Position numbers and translations under genes: made by a program
Notes under the pieces: generated by a model
Seen by the model: only the letters and a program-made list of their open reading frames with translations
Told to the model about the DNA's origin: nothing
Database searches by the model: none
DNA from: Mariprofundaceae bacterium
GTDB lineage: Bacteria; Pseudomonadota; Zetaproteobacteria; Mariprofundales; Mariprofundaceae
Reading direction: 5' to 3'
DNA: 32,320 nucleotides
NCBI GenBank assembly: GCA_030950585.1
Contig: JAUZRG010000192.1
Span: 1-32,320 of the forward strand
In this document: one piece after another, positions 5,039 through 27,594 of the stretch
Numbering within the stretch: the first letter of the stretch is position 1
How the letters are laid out: each line of letters starts with the position of its first letter

Positions 5039-5632
5039 CTAAAAAAAATCTTCTTTGCGATTGTTGTTGGTATAGTATTCCACAGAGTCTGAGTGATGAT
5101 TTTTTTGCCGACGACAAATATTATTATGCTTTTTAACGTGATTAAACAGTGTGCTGGCTAAGTTCTTAATGCTGTCTAAGTTTTTTGTGTTGCAAGGTAT
5201 GAGTAATTCAGTGGGCACACTGATCATGGTTGAAAGGTCGCTAATTTGCTGGCTTGTGATGGTTTCTTGGCCACTTAAACCAAAGATGATGGTTTTTTTC
5301 TGTTGACGAAAAAAATCCAGGATAGCTTGCATGTTGTTGACTTCATCTGTTAAATCAATATCCAAAAGAAATAAAATACCAAGAGATTTTGCATATAATT
5401 CTTTCCAGTCTGTATGGTTATATTGATAAGAAGGTAGACCCCATAAGTGTAAGTCTAAGCCTTGGTCAATATCCAATACAGCATAGTCTACACCGATATT
5501 TGCCATGAATTCTTGGTGTTGTTGAAACAAGGTCTCATCGTATGTGCTGACTTGATTGAGAAATTGGATGAACTCTTTTTGTTTGGCTTGAGAGATTGCA
5601 TGGATAATGATACTCGTGTTTTCTTTGGACAT
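5039..5632 (-). CDS. MglA/COG2229-like small G-domain protein lacking the P-loop
   Basis: The fold is recognised from segments that match bacterial MglA/COG2229 GTPases in order: a first strand SIIIHAIS; the switch-II strand pair LDLHLWGLP (family: LYLFGTPGQ); a strand ILFLLDID; and a late IPCNTKN followed by a helix (family: PCDARD). The nucleotide motifs are degenerate. The P-loop position reads AISQAKQKE with no GxxxxGKT. GTPGQ has become GLPSY. NKxD is replaced near GLSGQE. A pseudo-GTPase is therefore likely, perhaps a docking or regulatory partner. The start at 5632 (197 residues) is chosen because AAGGAG lies 12 bases upstream. An ATG at 5674 has no ribosome site. The C-terminal tail is polar and basic. 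It is the last gene of the operon with the hybrid kinase, 92 bases downstream of it. Confidence 0.6.
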   Translation of the reverse strand: MSKENTSIIIHAISQAKQKEFIQFLNQVSTYDETLFQQHQEFMANIGVDYAVLDIDQGLDLHLWGLPSYQYNHTDWKELYAKSLGILFLLDIDLTDEVNNMQAILDFFRQQKKTIIFGLSGQETITSQQISDLSTMISVPTELLIPCNTKNLDSIKNLASTLFNHVKKHNNICRRQKNHHSDSVEYYTNNNRKEDFF

Positions 5633-5724
5633 GATAACAGTATTCTCCTTGAGAATGGGAAATACTGCCAGCATTCAACTATAGAGAAAAGGAAGACTTG
5701 AAATCTTCCAGTCATGGCATTATT

Positions 5725-8499
5725 TTAGATATAAGAGGCAATTAAATGGCGTAACTTATGAATATCAATAGGCTTGGTCATGAAAGCGGCATCTTCAAAG
5801 CCAATCATGTCCATGTCTAATAACTTCATATCATAACCAGAAGCAAAAATAATGGGTATTGTTGGTGAAGTACGACGGATTTCTTTCGCAAGTTCTCGTC
5901 CATTCATATTTGGCATGACCAAATCTGTGAGCAGCAACGCAAAATTATTGGGTTGTTTTTGGTAGATTTCCAATGCTTTTTTCCCATCTTCTGCGGTGAT
6001 GACTTGATAACCAAAAACAGTTAACAACTCATACATCATATCACGGACGATATCTTCATCATCAACCACAAGGATGAGTTGCTCATGGCCTTTTTCTTGT
6101 GTGACTTCAGGTTCAGAGCTGCTTGTTTCAGAAGGTGGTTCGACTAGAGGCAAATAAACAGAGAACACCGAGCCTCCATGTCGCGTACTTTTCACTTCTA
6201 TTTTTCCACCAAATTGTTCGATGGTACCAATCGACATGGATAAGCCCAAGCCTGTCCCTTCGCCAACTTCTTTGGTGGTGAAGAAAGGGTCAAAGACTTG
6301 AGTCAATGTTTCTTCATCCATGCCTGTCCCGCTGTCTTCAACTTTCAAGCATGCAAGGCCTGAATGTGAGCTGCAAAGCTGATCATCTAATTTGTGTTGC
6401 TGTGCCTGATCACAGGAGTGTAGGCTAACAGAGATAGAACGCTTTTTACTTTTCTTGACGGCATCACGGGCATTGGTGATGAGGTTCATTAAGACTTGTT
6501 GCAGTTGTGCAGAATTTCCATGCACAAAAAGTTTTTCATCGCTGAAATCTGCATTTAATTGAATGTCTTCAGGTATGCCTAATTTTGATGTGCTATAAGC
6601 TTCTTTCAAGATATCGCTTAAATTGAGTTTGCTAAACTGCTGGTGATCTTGGTGAGAAAATGCCATGAGTTGTGCAATGATGTCGGCTGCTTGCCAACTC
6701 AGCGAATCGATAGAATCGAGGTATGGCTTAACTTCATCGGTTGAGCCGACTTGCCGAGCCAAGTATAATGTACCTGTGATACCTGCAAGAATATTATTGA
6801 AATTATGAGCGACACCACCCACCAATGTGCCTAAAGCTTCCATCTTTTGAGTTTGTCTAAAGGCTTCTTCGACAGCCTTTTGCTCAGAAATATCAGAAAA
6901 TGTACCGACATAGTTAATGATTCTTTCATTGGCATCTTTCATCGCACGAATATGAAGTCTTTCTGGGTAGATTTCACCACCCTTACGCTTATTCCATAAA
7001 TCTCCTCTCCATTCGCCAGTGGTTAAAATACTTGTCCACATGCGTTGATAAAAGGCATCAGATTGTTTATCCGATTGAAGTATTCTTGGGTTATGACCGA
7101 TCACTTCTTCAGGTAAGTATTGCGTTGCTTTTGTAAACGCTTCATTCACATACTCAATCACACCGTTGTTATCTGTGACCATGATGGATTCACCAGCTTG
7201 TAGTAATGCATCGTTGAGTTTCTTGAGTTGTGAGGCTTGTTGATCGTGTTCGATGGCCAGTAGTGCAAGCGATGCACCTGCTGAAATGGTAGCTAAGTCT
7301 TGTTCGTTTGGCGTTTTGATACTGTCATAATACATGGCAAATGTACCCAAGACGTTACCTTGAAGGTTGATAATAGGCTCAGACCAACAGGCACATAACT
7401 GATGGGGTAGCGCGAGTTCTTTATAAGGTTCCCATCGTGGGTCTGTGGCGATATCACTAACAATGACACGCTTTGCTAAAAATGCTGCTGTGCCGCATGA
7501 ACCAACATTAGGCCCTATTTTCACACCATCAATGGCTTGGCAATATTCATCAGGTAAACTGGGTGCAGCGCCATGATGGAGGTGATTGCCTTTTCGCAAT
7601 AAGATGGATGCGCGCAACCCTGAAACATCTTTTTCATACATTAAAATAATGCTTTCAAGTGATTGTTTGAGGGGCGTATTTTTGACCATACCAGCCAAGA
7701 TGGCATTACTTTCCTTGATAAAGTATTTAGAATGTTTGATTTGAGCATGCATGCTGTTGAGCTTTTGAGCCATGCTACTTAACTCGCCTTTCCCCTCAAT
7801 GCCTAGGGATTCTACTTTGTCACCTTCCTCTTGCTGATTCTCAAGCTGAACTTTAGCAATAAATGTATTCAGCACTTCAATGGGTTCGTTAATTAACTTT
7901 CGTAACATGATGATTAAGATAACCATAATCATCAGTATACCGAAGGCAAAGGCCAATGCTCGCCATTGGTAATTTTCATTCAATTGTTCAAGTTGAATTG
8001 TATCATCGTAGGCCATGTATAATTTACTTTGCTCAAAGCTACGTAGTTCGGATGGTCGATTTTGAGTGGTGATAGGCAAGATAGCATAGATTTTCTTAGA
8101 ATCATGACTTTCGATAAAGACAGGTTGCTTACTTTTCGTGAATAAATCGATTTTTTTAAGTTTTTTGATTTCGGTGAACAAGCGTCCCTTTAAGGCAAAG
8201 TCTGTTGCATATTGGATACGCCCATCTCTTCCGACTAAAACAGCATAACTCATTTGTGGATTACTCATGATAATGGCTATTTCACGCTCAATATCTTCAG
8301 GCAGAGAGAGTCGAAAGTAGCGTTCAATATTTCTTTGTAGCCTGAGGGATTCTGATTTGAATGAATGCAGGTTGTGTTTGGTTATTTGCTCATGTGAGGA
8401 TTGATATAGTTGCCACATCAAGCCCATACCCAGTGGAAGTAAAGTAAGACTGATAAGGAGTGGAATATATAATTTTAAACTTCGCCCATGAATGATCAT
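5725..8499 (-). CDS. Hybrid sensor histidine kinase with extracytoplasmic sensor, GAF, PAS and receiver domains
   Basis: This 924-residue inner-membrane kinase has transmembrane helix 1 (about 11-30), a periplasmic sensor region of about 150 residues that resembles a single Cache-like domain, transmembrane helix 2 (182-199), a HAMP-like linker (200-260) and a GAF domain (about 265-420, with GSCGTAAF). A PAS domain follows (425-545, with FSDISEQKAVEEAF), then a HisKA dimerisation domain with GGVAHNFNNIL (phospho-acceptor His565). The catalytic ATPase domain has an N-box NLITNARDA, DSGTGM and GTGLGLS. The C-terminal receiver domain has phospho-acceptor Asp859 in LLTDLVMPNMNG and Lys909. All catalytic residues appear intact. 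Its ATG overlaps the upstream lipoprotein stop as ATGA, so the binding protein probably delivers the signal. No separate DNA-binding regulator is adjacent, so output may pass through a distant phosphotransfer protein. Confidence 0.93.
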   Translation of the reverse strand: MIIHGRSLKLYIPLLISLTLLPLGMGLMWQLYQSSHEQITKHNLHSFKSESLRLQRNIERYFRLSLPEDIEREIAIIMSNPQMSYAVLVGRDGRIQYATDFALKGRLFTEIKKLKKIDLFTKSKQPVFIESHDSKKIYAILPITTQNRPSELRSFEQSKLYMAYDDTIQLEQLNENYQWRALAFAFGILMIMVILIIMLRKLINEPIEVLNTFIAKVQLENQQEEGDKVESLGIEGKGELSSMAQKLNSMHAQIKHSKYFIKESNAILAGMVKNTPLKQSLESIILMYEKDVSGLRASILLRKGNHLHHGAAPSLPDEYCQAIDGVKIGPNVGSCGTAAFLAKRVIVSDIATDPRWEPYKELALPHQLCACWSEPIINLQGNVLGTFAMYYDSIKTPNEQDLATISAGASLALLAIEHDQQASQLKKLNDALLQAGESIMVTDNNGVIEYVNEAFTKATQYLPEEVIGHNPRILQSDKQSDAFYQRMWTSILTTGEWRGDLWNKRKGGEIYPERLHIRAMKDANERIINYVGTFSDISEQKAVEEAFRQTQKMEALGTLVGGVAHNFNNILAGITGTLYLARQVGSTDEVKPYLDSIDSLSWQAADIIAQLMAFSHQDHQQFSKLNLSDILKEAYSTSKLGIPEDIQLNADFSDEKLFVHGNSAQLQQVLMNLITNARDAVKKSKKRSISVSLHSCDQAQQHKLDDQLCSSHSGLACLKVEDSGTGMDEETLTQVFDPFFTTKEVGEGTGLGLSMSIGTIEQFGGKIEVKSTRHGGSVFSVYLPLVEPPSETSSSEPEVTQEKGHEQLILVVDDEDIVRDMMYELLTVFGYQVITAEDGKKALEIYQKQPNNFALLLTDLVMPNMNGRELAKEIRRTSPTIPIIFASGYDMKLLDMDMIGFEDAAFMTKPIDIHKLRHLIASYI

Positions 8500-9527
8500 T
8501 CGTTAAAGCTCCCAATAAACAAGTTATGGCTTGGAATACGATGTTGAAGAAGGTGATGTTTTTGCATGATGGCTTCAGTTTTTTTGCTTAAATCTTTAAA
8601 CGCATCGGCATCATGGTTAAACAATTTTTGATTGTCATGTTTATTGAGCATTTGTAATAATGCGTAAGAGTCCAACATATCTTTGACGCTTAGGCCTAAG
8701 TGAGGAACCATGCGCTGCGCTGCAAGCTGTGGTTTTGCTTTTAAATAAATCAGGGCAGAAAAATAACCATCAATCAATTGTTGCGTGGCCTGTGGTGATA
8801 AAGCCATAGCGTCACTTCGGATCACTAAAACATCCATGATCTTATTTGTAATGCCTGTGCTACTGAACAGTTCTTGCGCACCGATCTGTAAAAGCTTTGT
8901 GCGTATCGGTTCAAAAGTGACGACAGCATCGACATTGCCAGATATGAAGGTTTCATAGTGATGGTCAGACATCGTTGGAACGATCTGAATATCAGATAAT
9001 TGTAAGTGTGCTGCTTCTAAAGCAGCACTGAGTAGAATAGCGCCAACGCCCGTGGTTTCAACAGCGACTTTTTTACCCTTTAAATCACGAAAGCTTTTAA
9101 TGTCTGGTTTGGCCAATATGACATCAGCACCTTTTGAGAAGTCTATCCCCAAAATAATTTTAATGTCGATGCCTTGTGCGACCACACTTAATGCTTCATC
9201 TAAGGTCAGAGCGGCACCATCTATTTGACCAGAACGAAGCAATTGTGTGACTTCAGTCGAAGATGGAAGCTCAATTAGTCGGACTTCACGCTCATTATAT
9301 TCACCCAGATCACGCGCTAAATAAAACAACCCATAGCCAGGCCATGGGTTGGTTCCAACCCTTAAAAGTGGCTCCTCTGTTGACTGCTGGCAAGCTGATA
9401 AGAGCAAAAACATGAAGGGGTATAAAAGGGTTTTTACGGCATTGATATACTGTTGATCGCTCATGGTGAAAGATGTTGTATGAGATGATAAAGGTGTTTC
9501 TCTATGAAGGGTGATGTCATGTTTCAT
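8496..9527 (-). CDS. NMT1/THI5-like (SsuA/ThiY-type) substrate-binding lipoprotein
   Basis: The mature part begins at Cys46 in the lipobox LLSAC. It then has the type II periplasmic-binding fold of nitrate/sulfonate/pyrimidine-precursor binding proteins: LLRVGTNPWPGYG, an early LARDLG helix, GQIDGAALTLDEAL, DLKGKKVAVETTGVGA and GNVDAVVTFEPIRTKL. The lipobox has no Asp at +2, so outer-membrane retention by the Lol rule is possible. The ATG at 9527 has AAGGA 6 bases upstream. A second ATG (9464) would give a more ordinary signal peptide but lacks a ribosome site. No ABC permease or ATPase genes flank it. It overlaps the hybrid kinase by four bases, which suggests that it senses a small ligand for the kinase and does not import it. 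The ligand is unknown. Confidence 0.88.
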   Translation of the reverse strand: MKHDITLHRETPLSSHTTSFTMSDQQYINAVKTLLYPFMFLLLSACQQSTEEPLLRVGTNPWPGYGLFYLARDLGEYNEREVRLIELPSSTEVTQLLRSGQIDGAALTLDEALSVVAQGIDIKIILGIDFSKGADVILAKPDIKSFRDLKGKKVAVETTGVGAILLSAALEAAHLQLSDIQIVPTMSDHHYETFISGNVDAVVTFEPIRTKLLQIGAQELFSSTGITNKIMDVLVIRSDAMALSPQATQQLIDGYFSALIYLKAKPQLAAQRMVPHLGLSVKDMLDSYALLQMLNKHDNQKLFNHDADAFKDLSKKTEAIMQKHHLLQHRIPSHNLFIGSFNE

Positions 9528-9822
9528 ATCAAGTCCTTGCTGATGCGTTTCATCGTATTTGGTACGAAAGCTAGTTTAAATGATGACATTCAACAAAGTC
9601 CTTTGCGCCAAAAACTTTTCTTTTATTGAGGTGAGTAGCCCTTATCACATACTGACCATTCCCGCGAATACAAATATAGTATTTTAAGCATTGAATGACC
9701 AGCTTCAAGTATGTGCGCGGTGCCTGAAGCTTATCAAGGACAGTTATTCACAGCCAAAGGCATACTTAAATGACAATAAATGTATCATCTATTTGCTAAT
9801 ATTTGGGTTCCACAGCCATGAT

Positions 9823-23545: not shown

Positions 23546-24568
23546 ATGGAAATAATAGGACTTGATATAGGCTTTGGCTTTACCAAAGCAAGTAATGGTA
23601 AAAAGTCATTGATTTTTAAATCTGTATATGGCGAAGCAACAGACTTCCAATATCGGGAACCATTGTTGGATGGTGATCGTTTAGAGCAATACCTTCAAAT
23701 TGATATTGATGGTAACTCTTATTTTGTGGGGGAGCTGGCTGAACGACAAAGTACCAACCGCTTTTTTACTTTGGATCAAGCGCAATTCATGGATCAGCCA
23801 AGTCGTATTTTGGCATTGGCCGCGATGTCCAATTTGGTAGAGAGTAATCAAGCCGTTAAACTTGTTTTAGGTCTACCGATTAGTCATTATCGCAAGTACA
23901 AACAAAAATTACATGACTTACTGAAAACAACCCACGATATTATCATCACCGATAGCAAAGGTCTGTGTCGTGAGAAGAAAATTAAGGTTGCTGATGTTCG
24001 GGTGATTCCTCAACCTTTTGGCAGCATTATGAACTATATGCTCAATGATCAAGGCAAGATGTCGGAGCAGCGTTTTTCAAAAGAAAAAATTGGTATTATA
24101 GATGTTGGTTTTTGCACCACTGATTACACAATTTCAGATAAAACACGTTATTCTGAACGTGGTAGCATGAGTGTGCAAACGGGCATGTCCAAAGCTTTTG
24201 CAATCATTGCCACACGCCTGAAAGATATTAGTGGTGTGAATGTTGAGTTATACCGCTTGTTTGACTCTGTGCATTCAGGTTCGATTAAAATTCGTGGTAA
24301 AAGTTATGATTTGAAAAAAGTGAGTCAACAGGCTTTGGGGCAATTGGCTGCAAGTATTGCTTCTGATGCCAACCGTTTGTGGGCTGATGATTGGGATATG
24401 GATGAAATCATTGTCACGGGCGGTGGCGGAGCAGTGCTGGCTCCTTTTATTCAACCGCTCTTAGAAGGCAATATGCTGAGCTTGAACCCTTCGCATGACT
24501 ATCGTTTAAATAATGTACAAGGTTATTGTAAATTTGGTAAAAGTGTTTGGCATACAAGCGATGACTAA
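23546..24568 (+). CDS. ParM/Alp-type actin-like ATPase
   Basis: This 340-residue protein has the actin/Hsp70-superfamily nucleotide motifs in order: phosphate-1 LDIGFGFTK (6-14), phosphate-2 IGIIDVGFCTTDYTI (182-196) and adenosine motif IIVTGGGGAVL (288-298). The N-terminal domain matches the actin-like (Alp_N) family to which ParM/StbA plasmid segregation proteins belong. Members polymerise into ATP-dependent filaments. No parR-like DNA-binding gene or centromere repeat array is beside it, and the surroundings look chromosomal, so plasmid segregation is not supported. It may position a cellular structure, or be a relic of an integrated plasmid. The last four bases overlap the end of the convergent TPR-cNMP gene. 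A weak GTGAG precedes the ATG. Confidence 0.85.
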   Translation: MEIIGLDIGFGFTKASNGKKSLIFKSVYGEATDFQYREPLLDGDRLEQYLQIDIDGNSYFVGELAERQSTNRFFTLDQAQFMDQPSRILALAAMSNLVESNQAVKLVLGLPISHYRKYKQKLHDLLKTTHDIIITDSKGLCREKKIKVADVRVIPQPFGSIMNYMLNDQGKMSEQRFSKEKIGIIDVGFCTTDYTISDKTRYSERGSMSVQTGMSKAFAIIATRLKDISGVNVELYRLFDSVHSGSIKIRGKSYDLKKVSQQALGQLAASIASDANRLWADDWDMDEIIVTGGGGAVLAPFIQPLLEGNMLSLNPSHDYRLNNVQGYCKFGKSVWHTSDD

Positions 24569-25827
24569 ACAGGCGTGATGTTGTTGGGTGATTGATGTTT
24601 AAGTTCTTCTTCTCGGACAAAGTAATGAGATTCTTTGGTTTGAGACTGTTTGCGAACCTTCAACACCCAACGCAATTCAGCATGCTCATTGTAGAGTTGC
24701 TGAAAGTACGATTCGGGAATACATAATAAGGTTGTGTTGCTTAAGGCAATGGCTGAGGCGGTTCGACGGTGTTCATTGATAATGGAAATTTCACCGATGG
24801 TAGCATTGATAGCCACTTTTTTTAAAATAGCAGCTTTGTTTTGAATTTGCAGTTGAATACCAAGACGGCCAGATAGTATAATATACACATTGGCATCGGT
24901 GTCGTTTTGCTTGAATAAATACTCACCTTTCTTTTTACGTACCAGAATGATGTGGTTGGCAATCTCTTTTCGGGCTTGGGTATTGAGTTCCGAGAACACA
25001 GGCGCAACGGCCAATCGGCATAATAAAATGCGTTCACGGTATAAATTTTTCATATGCGACTTTAGATTAGGTAAATAAGCTTGAAGCTTAGGAATATGTT
25101 CATATGAGATTTTTAGCAGTGTGCATTCGCGTACTGCGATAATTTGCGTAATACGCTTGGCATCCAAAAAAAAAGATGATTCACCGAGTATTTCCATCTC
25201 ATGAATATAACCCATACTGTCAATACGTGTTTCTTGGGGAATCAGTGCTTCAACTTGGCCTGAAACCAAAAAAAACAAATGTTTTTCTGGGTCATCGAAG
25301 CGTATCACAACCTCATCTCTGACTGCATGGGTGATGGATATCCAAGGCATGATTTCTTGAAACTCTTCAAAGTTCTGAATGGATGAGAAAACACTTTCTT
25401 TAAATTTCTTGGCACGATTAATGCGATAATAAATCTGTTCCTCTTTGGATAAAAGATCAAACATATCATCATGCCATAAGTCTTTTTTTATTAAGTGAGT
25501 GATTGTTTGGTGTAGTGGTGCCTTATCAGCAGAAATACGATAACATGCTTTTAATGCAGATAAGGCGTGATGCACTTGCGACAACTGAGTATAACGTTCA
25601 GCTGCTTTTAAATACCAATGCGCACTTTCATGATCATCATGGATTCTTTCAAAACACTGCGCTGCACGTAAAAATTGTTCTGCTTGTTTTCTCTCTTCTT
25701 TTTCATGCTGATGAGCATGCTCAAGATACAAATAGGCGGCCTGTTGGTAGTCTTTTGTGTCTTGAGCTGTGCGAGCCTTTTTTAGGAGCGCTTTTTTTGT
25801 CGGTTTCCCTGACGATTTAAAAATCAT
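24565..25827 (-). CDS. TPR-like protein with two cyclic-nucleotide-binding domains (paralogue 1)
   Basis: The 420 residues begin with a helical TPR/SEL1-like region (about 10-115: DTKDYQQAAYLYLEHA, AAQCFERIHDDHESAHWYLKAAERY in two helices, then a third repeat). Two cNMP-binding beta-barrels follow (about 155-262 and 278-385). The second has a near-canonical phosphate-binding cassette, GEISIINEHRRTAS, with Glu346 and Arg355, so it could bind cAMP or cGMP. The first (GESSFFLDAKRITQ) is more divergent. There is no DNA-binding or membrane domain, so it is not a Crp-type transcription factor. It is similar throughout to the next gene, so the pair arose by duplication. The 58-base gap to that gene includes a perfect palindrome, ACCTATAGGT (25841-25850). 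The ribosome site is weak. Confidence 0.85.
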   Translation of the reverse strand: MIFKSSGKPTKKALLKKARTAQDTKDYQQAAYLYLEHAHQHEKEERKQAEQFLRAAQCFERIHDDHESAHWYLKAAERYTQLSQVHHALSALKACYRISADKAPLHQTITHLIKKDLWHDDMFDLLSKEEQIYYRINRAKKFKESVFSSIQNFEEFQEIMPWISITHAVRDEVVIRFDDPEKHLFFLVSGQVEALIPQETRIDSMGYIHEMEILGESSFFLDAKRITQIIAVRECTLLKISYEHIPKLQAYLPNLKSHMKNLYRERILLCRLAVAPVFSELNTQARKEIANHIILVRKKKGEYLFKQNDTDANVYIILSGRLGIQLQIQNKAAILKKVAINATIGEISIINEHRRTASAIALSNTTLLCIPESYFQQLYNEHAELRWVLKVRKQSQTKESHYFVREEELKHQSPNNITPV

Positions 25828-25885
25828 TTTTTAACATTTGACCTATAGGTATATAACTAAAGTTGGCGTAAAATTTATAAGCATC

Positions 25886-27175
25886 TTATTCTGGTATATG
25901 CCAGATGCTTTGTAGTAGGCTGGTATTGGGGTTCATACGTTCGCCTTTTAAAAATGCATGTACAAAGCTTTGAATTTCTTTGAGTTGAAACTGACGACGA
26001 ACACTGAGTAACCAACGCAGGTCGGGGCTAGCTTCACATAACTTTTGATATTTCTTTGCATCTAGCATCATTAAAATACAATCGGTCAGGGCGCGAACAG
26101 TTGCACTTCGGTGACCTCCATTGATAATGGATAACTCACCAATGACAGCACCACGGGTCATGGTTTTAAAAGGCTTTTCGTTGCCTTTAATTTCTAAATT
26201 GACACTCATATGACCAAGACGAAGCAAGTAAATAGCTTGATTGGGATCTCCTTCAAAAAATAAGGACTGTCCTGCACTCAGTTCCACAGGTGTCATGCAT
26301 TGCGCAGCATATTGGCGTGATTTTGAATCTAAGATGGAGAACACTGGTGCTAAGGCAAGTTGTTGTAATAAGATGCGTTTGCGATATAATGTTTCCATAT
26401 ATGTTTTTAAATTGGCTAAAAGACATTGTAGTTTTTCAATGTGTTTATATGAAATCACCAATAACGATGTTTCTTCTCTGGCAATGAGTTCAGCGGTGCG
26501 TTTGCCTCCGGTAAAGTAGGCAACTTCACCACAAAGTTCATGGCTCTTGACGATACCCAGTGAATCTTGGCGGTTATCCAGTGTCATCCGTGCCTCAAGT
26601 TTACCGCTCATGACAAAAAACATTTCATCGGCATGATCGCCCAAAGAAACCAACACTTCACCATTCTTGATGGTGCGCAGCGACATGTAAGTCATGGTTT
26701 CTGTAAACACTTCTGCACTTGAGATACTGGAAAATATAACGGCATCTTTGACACGATAATACAAGCGTTCGGCATCGCTTAGAAACACATCCATATCTTC
26801 ATGCCAAAAGCCGTTGCTACTGAGACGTTTGATGATTTGATGTGGTCCATGTAAATCATCAGGTTGAAGTTTTCTGTAACGGTTTAATAGTGACAACGCC
26901 TGCATATCATACGACATTTCTGCATAATGGTGTGCAACCTTTAGATACCAATTAGCCGCTTCTGAATGACGATTTAATTTTTCATAACAATGTGCAACAC
27001 GTAGTAAAATATCTATTTTATGAATCTTGTCGGATAAGCCTTGTGCATGTGTTAGATAACATTTTGCAGCTTGATCATAATCGTTATTTTCTAAAGCTTT
27101 TCGTGCTTTTAAAAGCATGTTGCTTCTTGTTTCTATGTGATTGCTTGCATTTTTTTTCAATGCATTAAACAACAT
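25886..27175 (-). CDS. TPR-like protein with two cyclic-nucleotide-binding domains (paralogue 2)
   Basis: This 429-residue paralogue of the downstream gene has the same architecture: a TPR-like N-terminus (about 15-110, NNDYDQAAKCYLTHA and HSEAANWYLKVAHHYAEM), a first cNMP domain with GEVAYFTGGKRTAE (216-229) and a second with GELSIINGGHRSATV (346-360). Both cassettes keep the Glu and Arg that contact cyclic nucleotides, so both may be functional. The start at 27175 is chosen because GGAGA lies 8 bases upstream and because MLFNALKK then aligns with the MIFKSSGK start of paralogue 1. An ATG at 27244 would add 23 residues without support. The output is unknown. A scaffold that reports nucleotide level to a partner is the simplest reading. 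Confidence 0.85.
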   Translation of the reverse strand: MLFNALKKNASNHIETRSNMLLKARKALENNDYDQAAKCYLTHAQGLSDKIHKIDILLRVAHCYEKLNRHSEAANWYLKVAHHYAEMSYDMQALSLLNRYRKLQPDDLHGPHQIIKRLSSNGFWHEDMDVFLSDAERLYYRVKDAVIFSSISSAEVFTETMTYMSLRTIKNGEVLVSLGDHADEMFFVMSGKLEARMTLDNRQDSLGIVKSHELCGEVAYFTGGKRTAELIAREETSLLVISYKHIEKLQCLLANLKTYMETLYRKRILLQQLALAPVFSILDSKSRQYAAQCMTPVELSAGQSLFFEGDPNQAIYLLRLGHMSVNLEIKGNEKPFKTMTRGAVIGELSIINGGHRSATVRALTDCILMMLDAKKYQKLCEASPDLRWLLSVRRQFQLKEIQSFVHAFLKGERMNPNTSLLQSIWHIPE

Positions 27176-27594
27176 TCTATTCTCTCCAAGTGCTGATAAA
27201 CTCCCCAGTGCCCAGCGCATCCATTCAATGTTATATTTCTTCATGTGTCCAGTAACCGACTTGTGGATAGGGGATGGCTTCGTTGAAGTTGATCTTTTCT
27301 TGAGCCTAAAGACTCTATTTATGATGTCGTTTTAGTCAGGAAGGTTTATTTGTAAATAGCTAGCGTTAGAGTTCATCTTATAATAGAAAGCTTGATCATT
27401 TTAGGTATGTTTGTTTACTGGTGTTAGGCAGTTGTGATTGGTTACTCATCCTCGAATAATGAGATTCGGGGTCAAGTTGCGTAACGTCAGTTATTTAGCA
27501 TATTTGCGCGAGGTATCTTTATCTGATGTGTCGATGCATGCTTAGGGATACAGGGTTAAATGAATCATTTTTGTAAAAAGACAGAGGGATTGTT
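27176..27594 (+). other. 419-base non-coding region before citrate synthase
   Basis: This divergent gap must hold promoters for both the cNMP gene and citrate synthase. A perfect -10-like TATAAT lies at 27379-27384, though no good -35 precedes it. At 27450-27471, CCTCGAAT pairs with ATTCGGGG (one G-T pair) around AATGAG. The overlapping pair CTCAT (27445-27449) and ATGAG (27459-27463) would compete with this hairpin. No T tract follows, so it is not a terminator. The region has no convincing gene. AGAGGG before 27595 is the citrate synthase ribosome site. Confidence 0.4.

Follow-up and report, generated by a model that had tools for sequence, protein, structure and literature searches.

A solute-binding lipoprotein and a hybrid histidine kinase as a probable two-gene sensory pair in a Mariprofundaceae bacterium

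Results

Genes at the locus

The window, by which we mean the whole 32,320-nucleotide stretch of Mariprofundaceae DNA that was analysed, carries three neighbouring open reading frames on the minus strand. An initial annotation had described them as encoding an NMT1/THI5-like binding lipoprotein without ABC transporter genes, a Cache-GAF-PAS hybrid kinase overlapping the lipoprotein gene by four bases, and an MglA/COG2229-like protein. The three frames lie where that annotation had placed them, and its description of each protein was borne out by the features given below.

The lipoprotein gene (8496..9527, minus strand) encodes an NMT1/SsuA-like solute-binding protein (SBP), recognised by its Pfam and NCBIfam profiles, its lipobox and its AlphaFold2 model. 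The start is ambiguous: position 9527, with a Shine-Dalgarno-like AAGGA, gives a protein of 343 aa, and position 9464 gives one of 322 aa with a shorter signal peptide. NMT1 is the best Pfam family (E = 4.5e-18), Phosphonate-bd falling under the cut-off, and the lipobox reads LLLSAC, with its cysteine. Against the NCBIfam SsuA_fam model (TIGR01728) the protein scores 115 bits, under the curated cut-off of 163.5; it lies under the curated NCBIfam cut-offs for the sulfonate, taurine and urea families, which therefore point to no particular ligand. The AlphaFold2 model (pLDDT 94) has a type II binding-protein fold nearest to TauA/SsuA. As guides to the ligand by fold or sequence, TauA, SsuA, Thi5 and PqqT were all alike and none was decisive. 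No ABC transporter genes flank the lipoprotein gene in the window, its neighbours encoding an aldo-keto reductase and a thioredoxin reductase. Three overlapping weak sigma70-like sites, which are consensus matches only, lie 5' of the SBP gene and past the aldo-keto reductase gene (9673..9737, minus strand).

The SBP stop and the kinase start share the sequence ATGA (8496..8499, minus strand), an overlap that is also seen in many orthologous pairs and that is likely to couple the translation of the two genes. The kinase gene (5725..8499, minus strand) encodes 924 aa, arranged as a transmembrane (TM) helix, a Cache-like periplasmic domain, a second TM helix (the two at about 8-29 and 177-207), a linker/HAMP-like region, GAF, PAS, HisKA, HATPase and REC. 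The last five domains are recognised by Pfam, and the GAF domain is missing from most orthologues. All catalytic residues are present (H565, the N-box at 672, DSGTGM at 722, GTGLGLS at 748, D859 and K909), and the protein thus has the HisKA histidine (H565), the N and G boxes, and the receiver aspartate (D859) and lysine (K909) of a hybrid histidine kinase. No response regulator gene adjoins the pair in the window.

The sensor module of the kinase (TM1, Cache-like domain and TM2; 7948..8499, minus strand) is common to the partners of this SBP family in other bacteria. Neither Cache nor any other Pfam model matched the sensor domain in 76 sensor relatives, and its assignment comes from structure prediction: the AlphaFold2 model (pLDDT 90.6) has a long N-terminal helix and a PAS-like antiparallel sheet between the two TM helices, and Foldseek aligned it with the WalK Cache domain (E = 5.8e-5; TM-score 0.59 by target). 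A Cache-type fold is therefore predicted from the model.

Codon statistics mark the third gene (5039..5632, minus strand) as truly coding; its likely start, position 5632, has an AAGGAGA site and lies 92 nt past the kinase stop. The protein is a relative of the COG2229/MglA-type fold, and it has a paralogue in its own genome (G000:C59; E = 3.9e-16) with homology over the G domain. The G1-G4 motifs have been lost: the P-loop reads HAISQAKQ for GPFxxGKT (test motif GxxxxGK[ST]), G2 reads MANIG for MTTVG, G3 reads GLPSY for GTPGQ, and G4 reads LSGQE for ATKQD (test motif TKxD). We refer to it as a pseudo-GTPase. Between the kinase and the pseudo-GTPase lies a terminator-like hairpin (GGAAGATTTCAAGTCTTCC followed by TTTTCTC; 5691..5709, minus strand); its fold z-score over the surrounding 65 nt is -1.29, so that support for the hairpin is weak, and the region holds 8 terminator-like sites against 3.5 expected.

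Intact relatives of the pseudo-GTPase mostly adjoin a gene of about 200-240 aa, and not SBP-paired kinases. At L049:6763-8021, and in relatives of that locus, an intact COG2229-type GTPase gene comes right after such a gene, for which no Pfam match was found in the two examples scanned; it is possibly an undescribed constant partner of COG2229-type GTPases. At L066:2136-5995 (genome G005), a COG2229-type GTPase with a P-loop and its usual upstream partner are encoded directly upstream of an unrelated hybrid kinase.

Conservation of the lipoprotein and its receptor

With a profile built from 13 lipoproteins, 331 encoding places were located in GTDB genomes, and 80 loci of these were kept. Together with earlier loci these gave 89 close homologues (>340 bits), chosen by lipoprotein sequence and not by neighbourhood. 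Three of these 80 are on contigs that the set contained before; they were left out of the 14-kb neighbourhood count, and the other lipoprotein-side counts are slightly redundant. Where a downstream gene was visible, it lay on the same strand in 85 of 87 homologues, and in 83 of the 87 it encoded a receptor with the same N-terminal TM-sensor-TM region. The outputs of these partners differ (a kinase in about 50 partners, GGDEF or GGDEF/EAL in 29, with EAL motifs in 25), histidine kinase, hybrid kinase, GGDEF and GGDEF-EAL modules being swapped while the SBP and the sensor remain.

No same-strand ABC ATPase gene was found within 5 kb of any of the 89 close homologues; lower-scoring lipoprotein homologues do adjoin ABC genes. 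The pair is kept across phyla without ABC genes, in agreement with the initial annotation, which had read the lipoprotein as one that has no transporter and serves a receptor kinase. Among the 14-kb neighbourhoods of 86 loci, all 86 contain the SBP family and 81 the receptor family; the next most frequent family is present in 5, and there is no third conserved gene that could name the ligand. Record titles, many of them of metagenome-assembled genomes, place the pair loci in Gammaproteobacteria, Zetaproteobacteria, Cyanobacteria, Aquificota, Nitrospinales, Desulfobacterium and Leptospiraceae, and a plasmid collection gave one distant match only. A tree built to see whether the paired SBPs form one clade had outgroup branches too long for this purpose.

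The linkage was also counted from the other side, in an independent sample of 398 genomes from the phylum that was searched with the sensor only (E<=1e-12), SBP adjacency being counted by hand from two place lists. An SBP lies immediately upstream of 35 of the 44 sensor matches (of the other nine, eight lack it and one is at a contig edge), and in the same sample the sensor lies downstream of all SBPs above about 340 bits. The SBP-less matches that were inspected (L205-L213) encode either GGDEF-EAL receptors or hybrids of great length, none of them adjoined by an SBP of the same family, and the sensor may therefore also bind a ligand or another protein directly. Five of these loci (L205-L209), from one family of genomes, encode GGDEF/EAL-type receptors of about 830 aa.

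Pairwise distances among SBPs and among periplasmic domains are correlated (rho 0.43 over 70 pairs, against a permuted maximum of 0.12), a value from which shared ancestry was not removed and which may come partly from it. In addition, the same genome encodes an 1146-aa NMT1-PAS-GAF-PAS-HK-REC fusion (G000:C136:19107-22511, L050), and the same architecture occurs in the relatives G026 and G008. These NMT1-domain hybrid kinases put the same idea into one polypeptide, with a related kinase half; that of the 1146-aa protein shares 43% identity with the window kinase. In the window, by contrast, ligand binding is left to a lipoprotein of its own gene, and a Cache-like domain is built into the kinase.

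SBPs of about 250-340 bits are often paired with receptors of another build, composed of an N-terminal PhnD-like binding domain, PAS, and a kinase or GGDEF module. These receptors may represent a second type for related SBPs, possibly one with two binding domains. Orphan NMT1-like SBPs followed by PhnD-like-PAS receptors (hybrid kinase or GGDEF) were seen at L216, L217, L218, L082 and L083.

Discussion

We consider it probable that the lipoprotein and the kinase form a two-gene sensory pair, in which the loaded lipoprotein would switch the kinase by docking on its Cache-like domain, and that the lipoprotein serves no ABC importer and the pair is separate from the pseudo-GTPase. The gene order, the apparent coupling, the conservation of the pair, the absence of transporter genes and the intact kinase motifs are seen in the DNA itself. 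As in SBP-dependent transmembrane receptor pairs, a lipid-anchored SBP is encoded beside a transmembrane receptor, and the SBP-sensor linkage is conserved (83/87, and 35/44 from the sensor side).

By analogy with characterised systems, docking, ligand dependence and the direction of the switch can be pictured as follows. The periplasm-anchored lipoprotein would bind a small molecule and, once loaded, would dock on the Cache-like domain of the neighbouring kinase, altering the signal that the helices carry through TM2 and on into the GAF/PAS region. This would in turn change the autophosphorylation of H565 and the transfer to D859 of the receiver domain, from which the phosphate would probably pass to an HPt protein or response regulator encoded elsewhere. 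The pseudo-GTPase gene would be read at most by read-through.

Such docking logic is established for SBP-activated receptors (PMC9602780; PMC11113362; PMC5908839), and in 10 of the 11 SBP-kinase couples that have been characterised the two genes lie near each other (PMC11113362). Adjacency is not always matched by contact, as no binding was found for the adjacent pairs AgtB-AgtS and PA4985-AruS (PMC11113362). The window pair is a stronger case than these, because its linkage persists over phyla and exchanged outputs.

Among known systems, AioX-AioS-AioR (and ArrX/ArxX) likewise have a type II periplasmic binding protein beside a sensor kinase, in the service of signalling and not transport (PMC5908839). 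The window SBP, however, is NMT1/SsuA-like and not of the phosphonate-binding-like AioX family, and the window pair has no response regulator gene, has a hybrid kinase with GAF-PAS, and varies in output among its relatives. LuxQ and TorS are also hybrid kinases. In LuxP-LuxQ, TorT-TorS and XylFII-LytS, the binding protein docks on the periplasmic domain of the kinase (general mechanism reviewed in PMC9602780), as we propose for the window pair, for which AioX-AioS is a model too. These three systems use other binding-protein and sensor-domain families than the window pair does. In NspS-MbaA and ScrB-ScrC, a binding protein controls a GGDEF/EAL receptor. This class (cited in PMC11113362) resembles the GGDEF members of the window pair's family but has other SBP and sensor families, whereas in the window family a single SBP family serves both kinase and c-di-GMP outputs.

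It could be argued that the lipoprotein and the Cache domain each answer to a separate cue and share no more than their regulation, with the kinase binding a small ligand of its own, as Cache domains usually do directly and as the relatives whose sensor has no adjoining SBP gene might suggest. We regard this as unlikely, given that outputs are swapped while the SBP and sensor stay joined across phyla, that their distances correlate, and that a fused form exists.

Returning to the third gene, the initial annotation had gone further, proposing a three-gene operon and one sensory complex in which the G-domain-like protein carries or gates the kinase output; neither proposal was supported. In such an arrangement the pseudo-GTPase would act as a nucleotide-independent scaffold, and some observations agree with this: the three genes share a strand, the third is 92 nt off and is a real coding sequence that has been kept open, a G-domain fold without nucleotide could bind partners even so, and G005 (L066) has an intact COG2229-type gene and its usual partner directly upstream of a hybrid kinase, albeit an unrelated one. 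The gene is not conserved, however, and for that reason we reject the trio, which we judge very unlikely. The closest pair, L089 (Mariprofundus sp.), has 63% SBP identity and a 922-aa kinase of the same architecture, GAF included, and no pseudo-GTPase homologue was found there in the 530 bp past the kinase or in the genome assembly. Among the 398 genomes no close relatives were found, the best foreign matches being under 30% identical over the domain. Within 6 kb of the 89 pair loci there is only a single COG2229 homologue, encoded on the opposite strand next to another partner and with its P-loop intact. Co-occurrence of the three families, whose rarity the initial annotation had itself named as counting against the trio, is thus rare for the third gene and frequent for SBP and receptor. 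Nor is the operon borne out, as its third gene lies past a 92-nt gap with a terminator-like hairpin (5709-5691). Because the gene is missing in L089, has no close match in the 398 genomes and is set off by the hairpin and the 92 nt, the pseudo-GTPase is probably a separate, lineage-specific neighbour and not part of the sensory pair, and a private role with the window kinase is possible.

Actinobacterial conservons (CvnA-D) and MglA/MglB also bring together a sensor kinase-like protein and an MglA-type small GTPase (PMC13343842). In conservons the partners are a small GTPase, roadblock and DUF proteins, whereas the G domain in the window is motif-less and is encoded without a roadblock gene.

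A reading of the lipoprotein as the usual binding subunit of an ABC importer, with its permease encoded elsewhere and the kinase regulating uptake, agrees with its SsuA/TauA-like fold and profile and with the ABC genes beside lower-scoring homologues, but is highly improbable and is rejected on the neighbourhoods, in which 0 of 89 close homologues have a same-strand ABC ATPase gene within 5 kb and nearly all have the receptor.

The sensory pair that we favour belongs to a known kind, that of a binding protein driving a membrane receptor; its SBP family, its unmodelled sensor and its free exchange of outputs are apparently undescribed, a literature search having found nothing on this SBP-receptor family, with most subscription papers outside the search. 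It is tempting to speculate, though only tentatively, that the pair is an ancient, output-agnostic cassette, in which one transporter-less NMT1-like lipoprotein family and one unnamed Cache subfamily would sense the same small molecule across Pseudomonadota, Cyanobacteria, Aquificota, Nitrospinota, Desulfobacterota and further groups, while kinase and c-di-GMP outputs are exchanged freely.

For most bacterial receptors the signal has yet to be found, in part because what a receptor reads can be a binding protein and not the ligand. In many genomes a dedicated SBP family goes together with an unmodelled sensor, so that knowing the ligand of one soluble lipoprotein could reveal the signal of kinases and c-di-GMP enzymes from many phyla. 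The analysis of the pair also corrects the likely misannotation of such lipoproteins as sulfonate, taurine or nitrate importers.

Elsewhere in the window (24565-27244), two tandem paralogues each have, by eye, a TPR-like N-terminus and two cyclic-nucleotide-binding-like domains, and a ParM-like actin gene (23546-24568) adjoins them.
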